Assembly (NCBI GenBank): GCA_945861435.1
Contig: CAMAUX010000052.1
Location: forward strand, 1-40,255
Source: Chthoniobacter flavus
Lineage (GTDB): Bacteria; Verrucomicrobiota; Verrucomicrobiia; Chthoniobacterales; Chthoniobacteraceae
Direction: 5' to 3'
DNA: 40,255 nt
The notes beneath the pieces are model-generated. The model did no database searches. It saw nothing but the letters and a program-made list of their open reading frames with translations, and was not told where the DNA came from. Shown here piece by piece: positions 30,844 to 40,057 of this stretch; position 1 is the stretch's first letter; every line of letters begins with the position of its first letter. Both the position numbers and the translations under genes were made by a program.

Positions 30844-32265
30844 TTAGAGGCCGATGCGTTCCTGGAGTACGGCGGCGATGCGGTCGGCCTGCTGGTTGAT
30901 GCGGGAACCGTCGCGGCCTTCGATGAGAAGGCGGACCTTGGGTTCGGTGCCGGAGTAGCGGAGGAGGACGCGTCCCGCGCCCTTGAGTTCGGCCTCGGCT
31001 TCCTGAACGAGTTGGAGGACGTCCGGGAGTTGTTCGAGCGGAGGCTTTTCGCGGACGCGCAGGTTGCGCTGCGCCTGGGGATACTTGATGAGGCAGGCCT
31101 TGAGTTCGCTGAGGGGGCGGCCGGTTTCTGCCATGATGCGGAGGATCTGGAGCGCGGCGACGATGCCATCGCCGGTGGTGGCGTAGTCGCGGAAGATCAT
31201 GTGGCCGCTTTGTTCGCCGCCGACGTTGAGGTTGCCGTGCATCATGGCTTCGATGACGTAGCGGTCGCCGACCTTTGTGCGGAGGACGCGGCCCTCGTTG
31301 CGCTGGAGGGTTTCGTCGAGGCCGAAGTTGCTCATGACGGTGGCGACGAGGGTGTTCTTGGCGAGTTGCCCGCGCTTGATGAGATCGAGTGCGGCGATGG
31401 CCATGATCTCATCGCCGTCGACGAGTTCGCCGTTTTCATCGCAGAGGATGACGCGGTCGGCGTCGCCATCGTGGCTGATGCCGACGTGTGCGCCGGATTC
31501 GCGGACGATGCGCTGGATTTCAGCGGGGTGGGTGCTGCCGCAGTTTTCGTTGATGTTGCGGCCGTTGGGGGTGGTGTGGGCTGTGACGACGTCGGCGCCG
31601 AGTTCGCGGAGGATGCAGGGGGAGGACTTGTAGGCGGCGCCGTTGGCGGCATCGAGGGCGATGCGCATGCGTTCGAGGGTCATGCCCTTTGGGAAGCTTG
31701 CCTTGGCGAATTCGACGTAGCGGCCGAGTGCGTCGTCGATGCGGGTGGCGCGTCCGATTCTGCCGGCGGTGGGGCGGATGGAGTCGATGGCGCCGCTGAA
31801 GACGAGGTCCTCGATGCGGCGTTCGATGGCGTCGTCGAGTTTGTAACCGTCGTGGCGGAAGAACTTGATGCCGTTGTCTTCGTAGGGGTTGTGGGAGGCG
31901 CTCAGGACGATGCCTGCGTCGGCGCGTAGGGAGCGTGTGATGTAGGCGACGCCTGGGGTGGGCAGGGGCCCGATCATGAGGACGTCTGCGCCGAGGGACA
32001 TGACACCGGAGGCCATGGCGGTCTCGAGCATGTAGCCGGAGAGGCGTGTGTCCTTGCCGATGACGATCTTGGCGCGGCCGTGGGATCTGCTGGAGGCCTC
32101 GCTCATCTGCATGAGGACGTGGGCGGCTGCGCGGCCGAGTTTGAGGGCGGTTTCCGCGGTGACGGGTTCGATGTTGGCGATGCCGCGGACGCCGTCGGTG
32201 CCGAAGATCTTGCGTGGAGGCTGGGTCGCGGGGGAGGGGGTGTCAGTTTGCGGCTGGTGGGACAT
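30844..32265 (-). CDS. glmM: Phosphoglucosamine mutase
   Basis: The 473-residue product has a Pro-rich N-terminal extension of about 18 residues, then KIFGTDGVRGIAN, the phosphoserine loop VLSASHNPYEDNGIKFF (Ser124 is the catalytic residue), the metal loop SHDGDADRVILCDENG, the sugar-binding EQSGHMI and the phosphate-binding LRYSGTEPKVRLLIEG. GlmM interconverts glucosamine-6-phosphate and glucosamine-1-phosphate on the way to UDP-GlcNAc. It follows cdaA and a CdaR-like gene, the classical order cdaA-cdaR-glmM known from Firmicutes, in which GlmM can bind and restrain CdaA. The start ATG at 32265 overlaps the end of the small membrane protein by 23 bases. Confidence 0.95.
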   Translation of the reverse strand: MSHQPQTDTPSPATQPPRKIFGTDGVRGIANIEPVTAETALKLGRAAAHVLMQMSEASSRSHGRAKIVIGKDTRLSGYMLETAMASGVMSLGADVLMIGPLPTPGVAYITRSLRADAGIVLSASHNPYEDNGIKFFRHDGYKLDDAIERRIEDLVFSGAIDSIRPTAGRIGRATRIDDALGRYVEFAKASFPKGMTLERMRIALDAANGAAYKSSPCILRELGADVVTAHTTPNGRNINENCGSTHPAEIQRIVRESGAHVGISHDGDADRVILCDENGELVDGDEIMAIAALDLIKRGQLAKNTLVATVMSNFGLDETLQRNEGRVLRTKVGDRYVIEAMMHGNLNVGGEQSGHMIFRDYATTGDGIVAALQILRIMAETGRPLSELKACLIKYPQAQRNLRVREKPPLEQLPDVLQLVQEAEAELKGAGRVLLRYSGTEPKVRLLIEGRDGSRINQQADRIAAVLQERIGL

Positions 32266-32428
32266 GGGATCTGGGATCGTACGGGGTCTGGTGCTCGGAG
32301 TGGGTTTTAGAGGACTGGGTGGTTGTCCGGATGCTTTTCTTGATGGCCGCCCACAGGGAGACTGCCAGGGCGAGGGAGACGATCTTCGCGAACCAGTGAT
32401 GTTGGAACAGGCGTTGGAGCGGGTTCAT
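32243..32428 (-). CDS. Miniature CdaR/YbbR-like single-pass membrane protein
   Basis: This 61-residue frame reads MNPLQRLFQHHWFAKIVSL followed by a hydrophobic segment ALAVSLWAAI and a short hydrophilic tail. The pattern 'short basic N-terminus, NxxxKIxSLxLAxxLW helix' is the membrane-anchor start of CdaR/YbbR proteins, which normally sit between cdaA and glmM, exactly as here. The extracytoplasmic YbbR domains are absent. It overlaps the end of cdaA by 122 bases in another frame and the start of glmM by 23 bases. It may anchor or regulate CdaA, a role inferred only from position and the helix. The alternative is a chance frame, but the position, the start and the helix argue against it. Confidence 0.6.
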   Translation of the reverse strand: MNPLQRLFQHHWFAKIVSLALAVSLWAAIKKSIRTTTQSSKTHSEHQTPYDPRSHVPPAAN

Positions 32429-33185
32429 TTTTGTCGATGAGCAGGAGCTGGCTGAGGCGTTGCTTGAGGCTTTCGGGATCGAAGTTGCGTTCGATGAGGC
32501 CGCGGTGGCAGAGGGAGACGATCCCGGTTTCCTCGCTGACGACGAGGACGATGGCGTCGGATTCCTCGGTGAGGCCGAGTGCAGCGCGGTGGCGTGTGCC
32601 GAGAGTGCGGTCGAGGTCGACGCGCTGACTGATGGGGAATACGCAGGCGGCGGAGAGGATGCGGCCGTTGCGGATGAGAAGGCCGCCGTCGTGGAGGGGG
32701 GTTTTGGGGAAGAAGAGGGAGACGGCGAGTTCGGGGGAGAGTTCGCAGTCGATGTGGACGCCGGTTTCCGCGAAGGTATCGAGGTGGATTTCGCGTTCGA
32801 TGGCGATGAGGGCGCCGAGTTGGCGGTTGGCGAGTTCGAAGGTGGTGGAGGAAAGGATCTCGACGGTCTCGCGGCTTTGGGAGGCGCCTGCGAGGAGGCG
32901 GTGGCTGCCGAGTGCGGCGAGTGCGCGTCGCAGTTCCGGCTGGAAGATGACGACGAGTGCGAAGGCGAGGAAGGTGACGAGGTTGCGGAAGAGCCAGCTG
33001 ATTTCGGGCAGTTCGAACAGTTCGGAGAAGAGGGCGATGAGGACGAGGAGGACCGCGAGGCCGGTGAGGACCTTGGCGCCGCGGCTGCCACGGAAGAAGA
33101 TCCAGCCGTTGTAGATTGCCACCCAGAGGATGGCGATCTCGAGCAGGTCGCGCCAGTGTTCGAGGGGGTTGCTTGGGGGGATCAT
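32307..33185 (-). CDS. cdaA: Membrane diadenylate cyclase (CdaA/DacA)
   Basis: The 292-residue product has three predicted N-terminal membrane helices (about 14-30, 38-56, 66-81) and a DAC domain (about 100-250) with the catalytic DGG motif in PLHDGGLLIRNGRI (166-168) and RHR in LGTRHRAALG (198-200). It makes c-di-AMP from two ATP. The family core ends near LLLIDKN (residue 253); the last 39 residues are Pro-rich, unconserved and coincide with the overlapping CdaR-like frame. Its start (ATG at 33185) overlaps the stop of folP by 4 bases. Position between folP and glmM supports an operon that links c-di-AMP to cell-wall precursor synthesis. Confidence 0.94.
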   Translation of the reverse strand: MIPPSNPLEHWRDLLEIAILWVAIYNGWIFFRGSRGAKVLTGLAVLLVLIALFSELFELPEISWLFRNLVTFLAFALVVIFQPELRRALAALGSHRLLAGASQSRETVEILSSTTFELANRQLGALIAIEREIHLDTFAETGVHIDCELSPELAVSLFFPKTPLHDGGLLIRNGRILSAACVFPISQRVDLDRTLGTRHRAALGLTEESDAIVLVVSEETGIVSLCHRGLIERNFDPESLKQRLSQLLLIDKNEPAPTPVPTSLVREDRLPRPGSLPVGGHQEKHPDNHPVL

Positions 33186-34015
33186 GCGGCGGCGAGGGCT
33201 TCGGTGGCGCGGATGGCCTCGAGGTTGGGGAGCACGTCGTGGACGCGCAGCACGCTGGCGCCGCGCTGGCGGCCGTAGGCGCTGAGGGCGACGGTGGGCC
33301 AGTGGCGCGCTTCGATGGAGGGCTCGTCGGTGATGATGCCGAGGAAGGATTTTCGCGAAACTCCGAGGACGAGTGGACGCTCTTCGATGCGAAGAGAGGG
33401 GAGCTCGCAGAGCAGTGCCAGATTGTGCTGGAGGGTTTTTCCGAAGCCGATTCCGGGGTCAAAAGCGAGGCACATCGGATCGATTCCGGACCGTAGGGAG
33501 GCGTGGAAGGTTTGTCGAAAAAATTCCCGGACATCGGCCACCACGTCGTCATAGGAGGGGGCGCGCTGCATGTCGGCGGGAGTGCCCTGCATGTGCATGG
33601 CGATGGCGGCGGCGCCGGTTTCTGCGACGACGTCCCGCATGGCGGGGTCGCGGAGGCCGGTGACATCGTTGATGATGGCGGCTCCCGCGCGCACGGCGGC
33701 GCGTGCGACGGCCGGCTTCATGGTGTCGATGGAGAGGATGAGACGCGGATCGTGTGAGAGGCGTTCGATGATGGGGAGGACGCGGCGCATCTCCTCCTGC
33801 TCGGGCACGGGGGTGGCGCCCGGCCGCGTGGATTCGCCGCCGATGTCGAGGATGCGTGCGCCGGCGTCCGCCATGGTTTGTGCGTGGTCCCATGCGCGTT
33901 GCGGGTCGAGGAAGCGGCCGCCGTCGGAAAAGGAATCGGCCGTGACGTTCAGCACGCCCATGACAATGGCATGGGTGCTGAGGTCGAGGATGGGGCCGGA
34001 GGTTTTCCAGAGCAT
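33182..34015 (-). CDS. folP: Dihydropteroate synthase
   Basis: The 277-residue product (from the Met at 34015) contains the DHPS signatures IVMGVLNVTADSFSDGGRFLD, ARILDIGGESTRPGA, LILSIDTMKPAVARAAVRAGAAIINDVTG, AIAMHMQG, DPGIGFGKTLQHN and LVLGVSRKSFLG, ending with LRVHDV. It joins p-aminobenzoate to the pterin pyrophosphate in folate synthesis. The frame extends another 49 codons upstream, but the conserved domain starts directly after the chosen Met, and the extension lacks motifs. It is the first gene of the minus-strand operon with cdaA, glmM and bioD, and is divergent from the gene at 34180, with 164 bases between them for both promoters. Confidence 0.94.
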   Translation of the reverse strand: MLWKTSGPILDLSTHAIVMGVLNVTADSFSDGGRFLDPQRAWDHAQTMADAGARILDIGGESTRPGATPVPEQEEMRRVLPIIERLSHDPRLILSIDTMKPAVARAAVRAGAAIINDVTGLRDPAMRDVVAETGAAAIAMHMQGTPADMQRAPSYDDVVADVREFFRQTFHASLRSGIDPMCLAFDPGIGFGKTLQHNLALLCELPSLRIEERPLVLGVSRKSFLGIITDEPSIEARHWPTVALSAYGRQRGASVLRVHDVLPNLEAIRATEALAAA

Positions 34016-34179
34016 GGTGCGGGGTGTAAGGAGGAGATCTTTCGCGTGCCCGGGGGTGAAGGCAAGGGCGAGGGAAAGACAAATGAGATCTTGGCGCGTC
34101 CGGCGGTCGCGGCCAGATTGTGAGGCTCGCGAGCCGGGGGCTGTTCTGAGACTCCGCCGCATTACTTCAAATCCATCTC

Positions 34180-35358
34180 ATGACTGCATCTTCATCCTCG
34201 TCTGCCGCGCCTGCGGCGAATTTCCAGCGTGTGTTCCCGCCCTTCAGCCTGAGTCGTCTTTTGCGGACGGTGTTTGCGCCTTCGGGTGGGGAGCGTGTTT
34301 GCGTGCTGATCGATCTGGAGGATCCCCGGGAGATGGAGGGGCTGCGGTTTTTGAAAAATTCGGAGCTGACGATTCAGCGCAAGGCGCACGAGGTCTTTGT
34401 GTGCGGGTTGCGGGATGGGGTGCTTGCGGAGTTGGGGCTGCAGGGGGGCGCGATGTTTGCCTACGAGCTGACCGGGGGGAGCAATCTGGACCTGTCCGCG
34501 GATGCGTACGATGTGGATGGCCGGCGGCTGAGTCTCGTGGAGGACGTGCTTAAGCAGCATGATCTGGTGCTGTGCGTCTCCACCTACTCGGCTACGGCGC
34601 CACTGACGGCTTTTGCGAAGGAGTTCGGTTTCCGCGGGGCGACGTTGCATGGGCTTAACGATATCATCCTGGGGTCGGGGCTTTCGGTGGATTACAACGA
34701 GGTGAGTGTGCAGGCGGAGAAGCTGCGCTTGGGGCTGACACGTTCGGAGGCGGTGGAGGTGGACTATGAGGTGCTCGGGGAACGCGTCACGCTGCGGTTG
34801 ATTCTCAACGGGCAGGAGGCGCAGAAGAGCCATGGACTTTGCCGGGGCGGCCCGGATGTGGCGAATCTGCCGGCGGGCGAGGTGTACTTTGTGCCGGAAG
34901 GCGCGGAGGGTCAGTTCCCGATGCGGTACAAGGACGGGACGCTCGGGATGATGGAGGTACGCGGCGGGCGGATCGTGCGTGCACGGTTGTTGCAGGGGAT
35001 GCAGTCGGTGGTGGACGAGCACAACGCGAAGCTCGAGGGCGATCCTGTGACGGGTGAAATCGGGGAGCTCGGGTTCGGAACGCAGGAGTTGCCGGTTTCC
35101 GGGCGGGACATTCAGGACGAGAAGATTCTCGGGACGCTGCATGTGGCGACGGGGCGCAGCGATCATCTCGGGGGGCATCTGACGCCGAGCCTGTTTGCGA
35201 ACCGCAAGAATGCGACCCACGACGACATCCTGTTTTCGCCGACCAAGACGCCGGAGATCCGGGTGCCGCAGGCGCGGATGTACAGGGATGGGAAGGTGGA
35301 GGTGGTCCTTGAGGACTACCGTCCGTCGGCCTATTTGCGCGGCTGCCTCGGGAAGTAG
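34180..35358 (+). CDS. M29/NicX-like metalloprotein (aminopeptidase T-like)
   Basis: The 392-residue product resembles the M29 aminopeptidase (AmpS) and NicX dioxygenase superfamily. The C-terminal half has the ordered metal-ligand blocks: LPAGEVYFVPEGAEG (Glu234), GEIGELGFGTQ (Glu296), EKILGTLHVATGRSDHLGG (His321 and His329) and NATHDDILFSP (His347, Asp349). The N-terminal half is a Rossmann-like substrate domain. Members either remove N-terminal amino acids or open dihydroxypyridine rings. The present protein departs from AmpS in the N-terminal half, so the reaction is open. It is followed 61 bases later by an OvoA-type methyltransferase, which suggests work on a histidine-derived or other small amino-acid compound. 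This pairing is inference. Confidence 0.75.
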   Translation: MTASSSSSAAPAANFQRVFPPFSLSRLLRTVFAPSGGERVCVLIDLEDPREMEGLRFLKNSELTIQRKAHEVFVCGLRDGVLAELGLQGGAMFAYELTGGSNLDLSADAYDVDGRRLSLVEDVLKQHDLVLCVSTYSATAPLTAFAKEFGFRGATLHGLNDIILGSGLSVDYNEVSVQAEKLRLGLTRSEAVEVDYEVLGERVTLRLILNGQEAQKSHGLCRGGPDVANLPAGEVYFVPEGAEGQFPMRYKDGTLGMMEVRGGRIVRARLLQGMQSVVDEHNAKLEGDPVTGEIGELGFGTQELPVSGRDIQDEKILGTLHVATGRSDHLGGHLTPSLFANRKNATHDDILFSPTKTPEIRVPQARMYRDGKVEVVLEDYRPSAYLRGCLGK

Positions 35359-35419
35359 AGAAACTGCGTTCCGTTCGAAGACGAGCGGTGCCTTAGCTGA
35401 GGAGGCGACAAGACGGCCG

Positions 35420-36166
35420 ATGAATATTTACGAGACCGACAAGCTGCTCTCCGAGTACCTGCTCTTTCATTATGCGCGGGCGGAGGATTACCTGTCCTAC
35501 GGCTTCGGGCCTGCGGATGCGTTGGAGTATCCGCGGCGGTGCGTGGATGGGTGGGTGGACTGGAGCTTGCTGGGAACGGGAGGGCGCGCGCTGGATCTTG
35601 GCTGCGCGGTGGGGCGTTCGACCTTTGAACTGGCAAGGCGTGGCGCGTCGGCTCTTGGTATTGATTACTCGCGGCGCTTTGTGGATGCGGCGGAGCAGGT
35701 GCGCGCTGGCGGGGCGGTGACGGTGCGCCGGTTTGAGGAGGGGGATCGCTTCACGGAGGTGCGCGTGGAAAGGCCGCAGGGAGTGGATCCCGGGTTGGTG
35801 CGTTTTGAAGCGGGCGATGCGATGGAGTTGCGAGCGGACCTTGGGGTTTTCGATGTGGTGCTGATGGCGAACCTGATTGATCGGTTGAGTGATCCGAGGC
35901 GCTGTCTGGATCGGATGGGCGGCCTTGTGCGGGCGGGTGGGCAGTTGGTGGTGACGTCGCCGTACACGTGGCTCGAGGAGTTCACGCCGCGCGCTCACTG
36001 GCTGGGCGGAACGGCGGATGGGCAGTCGACTCTGGAGGGTTTGCGCGCTGCGTTGGAATCCGCGTTCGAGCTGGAGAAGTCCGGCGATGTGCCGTTCCTG
36101 ATCCGGGAGCATGCGCGCAAGTATCAGTGGAGCGTGGCTCAGGCGACGGTGTGGCGCAGACGTTGA
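35420..36166 (+). CDS. Free-standing OvoA C-terminal-type SAM methyltransferase
   Basis: The 248-residue product matches the C-terminal domain of OvoA, the putative 4-mercaptohistidine N1-methyltransferase of ovothiol synthesis. It has YETDKLLSEYLLFHY (4-18), the SAM-binding loop ALDLGCAVGRSTFELARRG (57-75), FDVVLMANLIDRLSDP (144-159), TSPYTWLEEFTPRAHWLGG (179-197) and PFLIREHARKYQWSVAQATVW (225-245). In OvoA this domain is fused to an iron-dependent sulfoxide synthase, which is absent here and elsewhere in the window. It may methylate a thiohistidine made by an unlinked synthase or by a different route. The Met at 35420 is chosen because it starts the conserved block. It lies between a metalloprotein and a TPMT-like methyltransferase. 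Confidence 0.88.
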   Translation: MNIYETDKLLSEYLLFHYARAEDYLSYGFGPADALEYPRRCVDGWVDWSLLGTGGRALDLGCAVGRSTFELARRGASALGIDYSRRFVDAAEQVRAGGAVTVRRFEEGDRFTEVRVERPQGVDPGLVRFEAGDAMELRADLGVFDVVLMANLIDRLSDPRRCLDRMGGLVRAGGQLVVTSPYTWLEEFTPRAHWLGGTADGQSTLEGLRAALESAFELEKSGDVPFLIREHARKYQWSVAQATVWRRR

Positions 36167-36180
36167 ACGGCCGGGGGTTG

Positions 36181-36771
36181 ATGACGATGACAACGGATTG
36201 GGAGGCGCATTATCAGCGGGGCGAAACCCCGTGGGACAAGGGGGCGCCGAGTCCCGGGCTTGTGGACTGGCTGGCAGAGAACCGTGTGGGCGGGCGGGTG
36301 TTGGTGCCCGGTTGCGGAATGGGGCACGACGTGCGGGCCCTGTCTGCGCAGGGTGCGGACGTGGTGGGTTTGGACTTGGCGCCTTCTGCAGTGGCCGCAG
36401 CGCGAGCTTTTGCGCCCGCGGGCGCGGAGCGCTACGAGGAGGGTGATTTGTTCGCGCTTCCCGCGAAGCACGCGGGTGCATTCGACTGGGTGTGGGAGCA
36501 CACGTGCTTCTGCGCGATCGATCCGGCGCGTCGTGCGGATTATGTGGAAGCCGTGGCGCGGGTCCTCAAGCCCGGCGGGTATTTGCTGGCGGTGTTTTAT
36601 CTGGATCCCGGGAGCAAGCGTGCCGATGAGGGGCCACCATTCGGAGTGAGCCTGGCGGAACTGGATGCTTATTTTGGAGCGCGCTTTGAGTGCAGCAAGG
36701 AATGGCTCCCTGCCCGCGCCTATCCCGGACGTGAGGGGCGTGAGTGGATGCGCCTGCTTCGGAAGCGCTGA
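36181..36771 (+). CDS. TPMT-like class I SAM methyltransferase
   Basis: The 196-residue product belongs to the thiopurine S-methyltransferase-like family: WEAHYQRGETPWDKGAPSPGL (7-27), the SAM loop VLVPGCGMGHDVRALSAQG (40-58), VVGLDLAPSAVAAA and the signature FDWVWEHTCFCAIDPARRADYV (101-122). These enzymes often methylate thiols, selenols or other soft nucleophiles. It begins 14 bases after the OvoA-type gene and probably shares its transcript, so the two methyltransferases may act on the same small sulfur compound. That link is inference. The ATG at 36181 is used; a second Met at 36187 is possible. Confidence 0.85.
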   Translation: MTMTTDWEAHYQRGETPWDKGAPSPGLVDWLAENRVGGRVLVPGCGMGHDVRALSAQGADVVGLDLAPSAVAAARAFAPAGAERYEEGDLFALPAKHAGAFDWVWEHTCFCAIDPARRADYVEAVARVLKPGGYLLAVFYLDPGSKRADEGPPFGVSLAELDAYFGARFECSKEWLPARAYPGREGREWMRLLRKR

Positions 36772-38593: not shown

Positions 38594-38717
38594 TGGTGCC
38601 GTTGTGCCTCCGTGTGAGATCCCTCAACTGCACTTCATGCCATGGCTCCATGCCGATTTTGTGAGACGCAGGGATGGCTGAAGGGGGGCGGTGGAAACGG
38701 AGATTTTGCCTGTCCCT
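38594..38717 (+). repeat. Interspersed repeat block P, copy 1
   Basis: This 124-base block, from tggtgccgttgtgcctccg to gcctgtccct, recurs at 39894-40017 with about five substitutions, exactly 1,300 bases away. It ends in the dispersed core gcctgtccct. Confidence 0.92.
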
Positions 38718-38733
38718 TGCGGCACTCCTTGTG

Positions 38734-38820
38734 CCTGGTTCTCACACCAAGGCACGGAGGCACCAAGAAGAACTCCCAATCACCAGAACGCCCCTCCCTC
38801 TCAACCTCTCTCATGGTGCC
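38734..38820 (+). repeat. Interspersed repeat block R, copy 1
   Basis: This 87-base block, starting cctggttctcacaccaagg and ending with ggtgcc, recurs at 39814-39900. Its start (ctcacac...ggcacggaggcaccaag) is roughly the inverse of the start of block P (cttggtgcc...gtgcctccgtgtgag), so a combined R+P copy can fold back on itself. Confidence 0.92.
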
Positions 38821-39055
38821 TTTGTGTGAGCCTTTCCGATGCAGGTTCTCACACGGAGGCACCAGGGCACCAAGGGGGGGAGAGAGGGGGAATGAGGGAT
38901 CCTGTCTGTCGCTTTTGAGGGGGCCGCTGATGGCGCAAAAGGGGCAGAAAGGGGGCGGACAGGAGGGGCGGTGGGAACGGAGATTTTGCCTGATCCCTTG
39001 CGGGCGCCTTGCGTTTTGAAGGTCCTTGGACGAGCGCGTGGGGCTGGAGAAACGC

Positions 39056-39502
39056 TCAGGGGGTTTCGATGAGCTCCAAATCAAGCCCGTGCGGTGCGTA
39101 GCTGCTGAAAGCGCGGTCAAATGTGACCAACTTGAGAGTGCCCGTGATCGCGAATGCGGCGAGATAGGCGTCCATCCACCGTTTTGTGGAGGCGGTGTCG
39201 AGTGCTCCCAGTTGCCGCCACACGGAGGTGAGTTCGGCTGGCTCGTTCAGGAAGGTGATCCGGTCGTCGGCGAGAAAGGACTCATAGGTTTCCCATGCCT
39301 GTGCATTGGTGAGGGCCCGCATGCGGTAGGCGGCCATCATGTTTTGATGGGACAACAGCCGGAGGTATCCCTGCTGGGTGGTGCGGCAAAAAACGATGGA
39401 GTCGCGCGTCTCCTGGGTCTGCAGCCAGCGAAGGGCTTCCTTGTGGTGGGCGTGGTGGGAGATGGTGAGGGCCAGCCAGATGTTAATGTCCGGAAGGTTC
39501 AT
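39056..39502 (-). CDS. VapC-type PIN-domain toxin
   Basis: The 148-residue product is a PIN-domain ribonuclease of the VapC type: MNLPDINIWLALTISHHAHHKEALRWL (Asp5), SIVFCRTTQQGYLRLLS, WMDAYLAAFAITGTLKLVTFDRAFSSY (Asp111 and Asp129). The acidic residues would bind Mg2+ and cut RNA, often tRNA or rRNA. Its start overlaps the antitoxin gene by 20 bases, as is usual in toxin-antitoxin pairs. The FCRxTQxGxLRLL segment is typical of a PIN subfamily common outside Actinobacteria. It lies between repeat copies, which suggests that the pair has moved or been exchanged as a unit. Confidence 0.9.
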   Translation of the reverse strand: MNLPDINIWLALTISHHAHHKEALRWLQTQETRDSIVFCRTTQQGYLRLLSHQNMMAAYRMRALTNAQAWETYESFLADDRITFLNEPAELTSVWRQLGALDTASTKRWMDAYLAAFAITGTLKLVTFDRAFSSYAPHGLDLELIETP

Positions 39503-39746
39503 TGAACGTCTTGAGTTCGTCCTCCAGGAGAAGACGGTCGATGTCCGTTTCTGTGAGTGAGGGAGTTGGGGAGTTCGGCGGACAGTGAATCAGGGGCAAC
39601 TGGACGCGGTGGGGAGGGGAATGGGGTTGTGCGAGGCCTCGGCGGAAGATCTCGGTGGCGACATCCCTGAGTTTGCGGCCTTCGTGGACGGCGCGCAGTT
39701 TCATTGCGCGGACGAGGTCTGCGGGCAAATCGAGGGTTGTTTTCAC
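39483..39746 (-). CDS. VapB-type ribbon-helix-helix antitoxin
   Basis: The 87-residue product begins MKTTLDLPADLVRAMKLRAVHEGRKLRDVATEIFRRGL, a ribbon-helix-helix DNA-binding domain, and ends with a Pro-rich linker and an acidic helix (LTETDIDRLLLEDELKTF) suited to binding the toxin. The start codon is GTG at 39746. The last 20 bases overlap the toxin gene, giving coupled translation. As in other VapBC systems, the pair is expected to repress its own promoter, which would lie to the right of 39746. Confidence 0.85.
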   Translation of the reverse strand: MKTTLDLPADLVRAMKLRAVHEGRKLRDVATEIFRRGLAQPHSPPHRVQLPLIHCPPNSPTPSLTETDIDRLLLEDELKTFNEPSGH

Positions 39747-39813
39747 GCGGTCAACTTTCCATTTTTCCAGCTTTCTGGCAAGTTTGAGGCCTGCCTGTAC
39801 GAGGAGATTTTGC

Positions 39814-39900
39814 CCTGGTTCTCACACCAAGGCACGGAGGCACCAAGGAAAACTCCCAATCACCAGAACGGCCCTCCCTCTCAACCTCTCTCTTGGTGCC
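39814..39900 (+). repeat. Interspersed repeat block R, copy 2
   Basis: This is the second copy of the 87-base block at 38734-38820. Here it runs directly into block P (overlap at ggtgcc), the reverse of the order at the first site, where P precedes R. Confidence 0.92.
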
Positions 39901-40017
39901 GTTGTGCCTCCGTGTGAGATCCCTCAACTGCACTTCATACCATGGCTTCATGCCGATTTTGTGAGACGCAGGGATGGCTGAAGAGGGGCGGTGGAAACGG
40001 AGATTTTGTCTGTCCCT
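39894..40017 (+). repeat. Interspersed repeat block P, copy 2
   Basis: This second copy of the block at 38594-38717 ends in gtctgtccct, a one-base variant of the dispersed core. It lies 40 bases beyond the stop codon of the RAYT fragment, the expected place for a REP sequence next to its transposase. Confidence 0.92.
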
Positions 40018-40057
40018 CATTCTCACACCGGGGATTGGGTGGGGCTCGTCTGCGCAA

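Follow-up and report, generated by a model that had tools for sequence, protein, structure and literature searches.

Two adjacent genes of Chthoniobacter flavus encode the proteins that we call P0001, a member of an unnamed metalloenzyme family, and P0002, a stand-alone methyltransferase. Their distribution and neighbourhoods give good support to a dedicated, undescribed two-enzyme pathway, and we propose, allowing the full scheme roughly an even chance, that the pair forms the core of one undescribed amino-acid pathway found in Verrucomicrobiota and in some Planctomycetota. The genes lie, together with a third one, in the 40,255-nt stretch of contig CAMAUX010000052.1 that was analysed (the window), which belongs to a 5.35-Mb draft genome (assembly GCA_945861435.1) with an estimated completeness of about 96%. 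The features are as follows.

34180..35358, + strand: P0001, 392 aa, unnamed metalloenzyme family with the NicX/M29 fold
35359..35419, + strand: gap of 61 bases between P0001 and P0002
35420..36166, + strand: P0002, 248 aa, stand-alone SAM-dependent N-methyltransferase of the OvoA-C/OvoM/OvsM family (TIGR04345)
36167..36180, + strand: gap of 14 bases between P0002 and P0003
36181..36771, + strand: P0003, 196 aa, TPMT-superfamily methyltransferase, a lineage-specific accessory

The original prediction had put the three genes in the same orientation, separated by 61 and 14 bases, an arrangement that the ORF coordinates bear out; in the 45 adjacent P0001-P0002 pairs found elsewhere, the median spacing is 58 bases between matched segments. 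On the opposite strand (30844-34162, -), P0001 is flanked divergently by a phosphoglucosamine mutase-like ORF and by the genes for the diadenylate cyclase CdaA and a dihydropteroate synthase; about 8-12 related loci have ORFs resembling them upstream of their P0001. Farther downstream (38594-40031), we could observe two repeat blocks (about 120 and 93 bases) that are almost identical to each other and of the TTGGTGCC...GTGTGAGA type; they bracket the gene of a PIN-domain protein (39056-39502, -) together with a short ORF upstream of it (39483-39746, -), and these two genes are possibly a toxin-antitoxin pair in a repeat-bounded segment.

The co-occurrence of the two proteins was evaluated in 236 genomes of the class Verrucomicrobiia, where the raw matches amounted to 104 genomes for P0002 and 98 for P0001. 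Two OvoA-fused hits (G011 and G122) and a distant homologue of P0001 (G209) were then subtracted, and the P0002 that adjoins P0001 in G048 was added; on this basis, both proteins are present in about 97 genomes, P0002 only in 6, true P0001 only in none and neither in about 133, with a phi coefficient, computed by hand, of about 0.95. One of the P0002-only genomes (G173) carries P0002 at a contig end. In seven or more families of mixed composition (f1, f3, f6, f10, f13, f16 and f18), the two genes are jointly present or jointly absent, so that the pairing cannot be put down to common ancestry alone. A locus search seeded solely with P0001 retrieved 71 loci, nearly all verrucomicrobial and some planctomycete, and in 45 of them P0002 follows P0001 on the same strand within 1.5 kb, six more being cut by contig ends; moreover, 23 of the 24 genomes in which P0001 does not adjoin P0002 carry P0002 elsewhere. 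Thus, P0001 is a conserved neighbour of P0002 in related genomes. The clade-wide co-occurrence is partly inherited, but the joint losses and the retention of unlinked copies argue for function. That P0001 and P0002 are chance neighbours with no common function is, accordingly, a reading to which we assign almost no probability: the divergent flanks and the splitting of the pair in some genomes speak in its favour, and it is refuted by the co-occurrence and the retained adjacency, as well as opposed by the keeping of P0002 elsewhere when unlinked. Apart from P0003, an ABC importer and a cupin (the last in family f13), no conserved gene was found beside the pair across the 71 loci.

P0002 scores 194 bits (cut-off, 170) in a full-length match (1-242 of 242) to the TIGR04345 profile (ovoA_Cterm, the 4-mercaptohistidine N1-methyltransferase domain), which agrees with its description as a complete stand-alone OvoA-type methyltransferase gene. 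Its closest solved relatives in the PDB are OvsM (197 bits), OvoA (166 bits) and OvoM (159 bits), and the motifs NLIDRL, SPYTW and RKxQ are conserved between P0002 and OvoM or the C-terminal domain of OvoA (PDB 8khq). Stand-alone methyltransferases of this type are already known, namely the 5-thiohistidine N-methyltransferase OvoM (PDB 9bxl) and the 5-selenohistidine N-methyltransferase OvsM (PDB 9bxh), which softens the premise that a lone methyltransferase is unusual. In a tree of 43 sequences, arbitrarily rooted and including few characterised enzymes, the verrucomicrobial P0002 proteins form one clade (support 100/99) beside OvsM, the nearest characterised branch, and the planctomycete partners fall on the OvoA/OvoM side.

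The original prediction noted the absence of a C-S-forming synthase nearby and called for a genome-wide search for homologues of the OvoA N terminus or EgtB; none was found, and the absence extends to the whole genome. P0002 is its sole TIGR04345 protein, no match to the OvoA N-terminal domain TIGR04344 exceeds the cut-off (best score, 42.6 bits), and no DinB_2 domain was detected, either alone or in any of the 29 proteins matching FGE-sulfatase. It follows that no recognisable OvoA, EgtB, SenA or OvsA synthase is encoded, and the possibility that OvoA, EgtB or OvsA occurs at another genomic site was rejected. Similarly, SelD was not found in this genome, where the only two matches are weak and correspond to frames of 1262 and 345 aa, the sizes of PurL and PurM. 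Since OvoA, DinB_2 and SelD are absent, the textbook routes to ovothiol, ergothioneine and ovoselenol can be ruled out within the roughly 96% of the genome that is covered. The selenium route, to which the nearness of P0002 to OvsM had drawn attention, was rejected here as well as for 74 of 80 genomes examined; OvsM belongs to a selenium pathway, whereas the genome of P0002 is devoid of SelD/SenC and of a DinB_2-type synthase. Among 77 P0001-bearing genomes checked, an EgtB-like DinB_2+FGE protein occurs in two (G132 and G172) and SelD in six. The SelD genes of G175 (L292), G180 (L293) and G096 contain one in-frame TGA each and probably encode selenocysteine-containing SelD. The family to which P0002 belongs, and its proximity to OvsM, could suggest a conventional route to ovothiol or ovoselenol whose synthase is encoded at a distance from the cassette. 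This reading is very improbable given the absence of OvoA, DinB_2 and SelD here and in nearly all other genomes with the cassette; for the genome of the window it is refuted, unless the synthase gene falls within the 4% not covered or the enzyme carries no DinB_2 domain that can be recognised. No literature linking ovothiol with Verrucomicrobia was found in the collection searched. Neither of the two findings that the original prediction had named as counter-evidence is borne out. Taken together, the lack of OvoA in the genome and the conservation of P0001 as a neighbour lend good support to a dedicated pathway, as originally proposed, although with a core of two genes in place of three, since P0003 accompanies only 13 of the 45 adjacent pairs.

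P0002 shows some distinctive features of its sequence compared to the characterised enzymes. In the alignment, L15 of P0002 corresponds to D or E in OvsM, OvoA and OvoM; H231 corresponds to T in all three, a residue that some f13 and f46 members keep; and position 237 is W in P0002, W, Y or L across the verrucomicrobial clade and H in the three enzymes. L15 and H231 are nearly constant in the P0001-linked verrucomicrobial members, and the planctomycete partners retain the OvoM-like T231 and H237. The combination of an acidic residue 15, T231 and H237 is used here as what OvoM, OvsM and OvoA have in common, and is not a published definition of the family. We infer that positions 15, 231 and 237 line the substrate pocket, and these clade-private substitutions indicate that the substrate may not be plain 5-thiohistidine. 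The proposed thiohistidine substrate is thus sustained only in part, by the homology of P0002 to 5-thio- and 5-selenohistidine N-methyltransferases and weakened by changes at positions common to the three of them. L15, H231 and W237 also count against our own scheme, as the substrate could, judging from these residues, lie outside the thiohistidine family or contain no imidazole. It is conceivable, with about one chance in four, that P0002 methylates a sulfur-free imidazole (histidine, a histidine dipeptide or another derivative) and that P0001 processes a conjugate of it; besides the replacement of these residues, no enzyme inserting sulfur or selenium on histidine was recognised in the genome, but the T231/H237 pair of the planctomycete partners and the score of P0002 above the TIGR04345 equivalog cut-off point the other way.

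As regards P0001, its sequence alone gave no match in NCBIfam or in the PDB, and a profile of the family gave none in the PDB; the intermediate homologue of G209 did not provide a bridge to any solved structure. Against the Pfam M29 profile (PF02073), P0001 scores 10 bits, below the cut-off of 27, and 19 of 50 family members match it weakly (best E value, 0.0016). The AlphaFold model (pLDDT, 93) has its best fold match in NicX, the 2,5-dihydroxypyridine dioxygenase (7cn3 and 7cup), with a Z score of 26.6 and an rmsd of 3.7 over 308 aligned residues but only 15% identity, followed by M29 aminopeptidases (Z, 18 to 19) and by the crocagin proteins CgnE and CgnB (Z, 12 to 14). The M29/NicX-like label given to P0001 at the outset is hence confirmed by profile comparison and by the fold. 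In AmpS, the metal ligands are E253, E319, H348, H381 and D383 (PMC7023490), which map to E234, E296, H321, H347 and D349 of P0001 in a profile alignment to M29; these five candidate ligands are invariant in 67 to 68 of 68 orthologues. P0001 therefore has the fold and all five ligand positions in common with the M29 aminopeptidases AmpS, AmpT and PepS, but, different from them, it lacks the catalytic Tyr of the EEHYHD motif, which is lost to a GRSDHLGG insertion, and shows the signature HVATGRSDHLGG in that region. NicX binds a single Fe(II) through H265, S302, H318 and D320 (PMC7910607), whereas P0001 keeps the five-ligand M29 set; P0001 does contain an H-x-D pair, probably common to both, and H265 of NicX would, judged by spacing, fall at E296 of P0001. 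P0001 thus combines a NicX-like body with an M29-like set of ligands, and neither a peptidase nor a dioxygenase activity can be regarded as proven.

OvoA occurs in 5 of the 236 class genomes, none of which has P0001. In three of these genomes, belonging to two lineages, an OvoA with a degenerate methyltransferase domain coexists with a separate P0002-type methyltransferase and P0001 is absent, so that P0002 can occur without P0001. At four loci (L222, L223, L224 and L225, of G122, G169, G208 and G213), the C-terminal methyltransferase domain of OvoA is devoid of NLIDRL, SPYTW and RKxQH, and the separate methyltransferase is present in three of these cases. OvoA is thus found in 3 of the 6 genomes with a P0002-type protein and no P0001, compared to 0 of about 97 with P0001 (exact test by hand, about 1e-4, before allowing for relatedness and with two independent events). 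The pattern hints that one methyltransferase family is supplied by P0001 in some genomes and by OvoA in others. As a special case of the two-enzyme amino-acid pathway, P0001 may take the place of the OvoA sulfoxide synthase and supply a thiohistidine, possibly modified, which P0002 would N-methylate to an ovothiol-like low-molecular-weight thiol. We consider this doubtful: the mutual exclusion of P0001 and OvoA in the class sample, the degenerate domains of those OvoA proteins beside a separate methyltransferase and the position of OvsM nearest to P0002 in the tree are consistent with it, but the reciprocity comes from two lineages, the M29 ligand set of P0001 suggests hydrolysis and the core of P0002 is substituted. 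Moreover, we know of no enzyme of the M29/NicX fold that forms C-S bonds, which counts against P0001 as a source of thiohistidine.

A polar-amino-acid ABC importer adjoins P0002 in 15 distinct loci of two phyla. In nine of these it lies next to a P0001-P0002 pair and in six next to a P0002 that has no P0001 beside it, the latter including four planctomycete loci with P0001 elsewhere. The importer consists of a binding protein and a permease, with the ATPase too in nearly all loci; the binding protein is of the amino-acid type of the HisJ/GlnH superfamily, and none of the importer proteins reached an equivalog cut-off that would name the ligand. In the planctomycete operon L208-L211, the amino-acid ABC importer is accompanied by an ADP-ribosylglycohydrolase-family protein and P0002. 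The idea of a salvage route, also contained in the original prediction, gains some strength, as a candidate, from this linkage. In such a route, the ABC system would import a thiohistidine- or methylhistidine-type amino acid or a conjugate, P0001 would free it as a hydrolase, in accordance with its five retained M29 ligands, and P0002, with P0003 where present, would methylate it. We regard this as possible, at about one chance in four. Against it, most loci have no importer, the M29 catalytic Tyr is replaced and the strong conservation of P0001 (about 55-76% identity among the copies retrieved from loci and genomes of two phyla) resembles more that of a core enzyme. The absence of the importer from most loci also counts against the scheme that we prefer.

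P0003 is a member of the TPMT/thiol S-methyltransferase superfamily (PF05724, 125 bits), which justifies its TPMT-like label, yet it scores far below the TPMT equivalog cut-offs. Besides the adjacent pairs mentioned above, where it comes next after P0002, it is found at some P0002 loci without P0001, and it adjoins P0002 in 31 of 175 P0002-bearing loci examined, which overlap in part. P0003 is an optional add-on and not part of the conserved core. The strain Chthoniobacter flavus Ellin428 (locus L055) possesses all three genes. In family f13, a small cupin (PF07883) adjoins P0001 and P0002 or sits between them; this cupin (L187-L192 and L052) carries a conserved IECCCG stretch.

In the two-enzyme amino-acid pathway that we favour, P0001, as a metal-dependent protein of the NicX/M29 fold with a five-ligand M29-type site and probably two metals, would form or free a histidine-derived, imidazole-bearing amino acid, and P0002 would then N-methylate the imidazole ring with SAM, like OvoM and OvsM. 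In some lineages, the amino-acid importer may supply the precursor or recover the product, and P0003 or the small cupin may modify the product further. The amino-acid nature of the pathway has moderate support from the family of P0002 and from the importer; we infer that sulfur chemistry is involved and what P0001 catalyses, and the order of the steps, the imidazole substrate, the methylated atom and the metal are likewise put forward as presumptive.

About 40% of the sampled genomes of the class keep this strictly paired and strongly conserved two-gene module, for which annotation pipelines would misleadingly call P0002 half of ovothiol biosynthesis and leave its partner P0001 nameless. A TIGR04345 match alone should not be taken as ovothiol production. 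The P0001-P0002 pair would open a way towards a new metabolite or redox thiol, besides providing a first function for the unnamed NicX/M29-fold family. If the thiohistidine route independent of OvoA were true, a large part of the Verrucomicrobiota and some Planctomycetota would make an ovothiol-like thiol independently.
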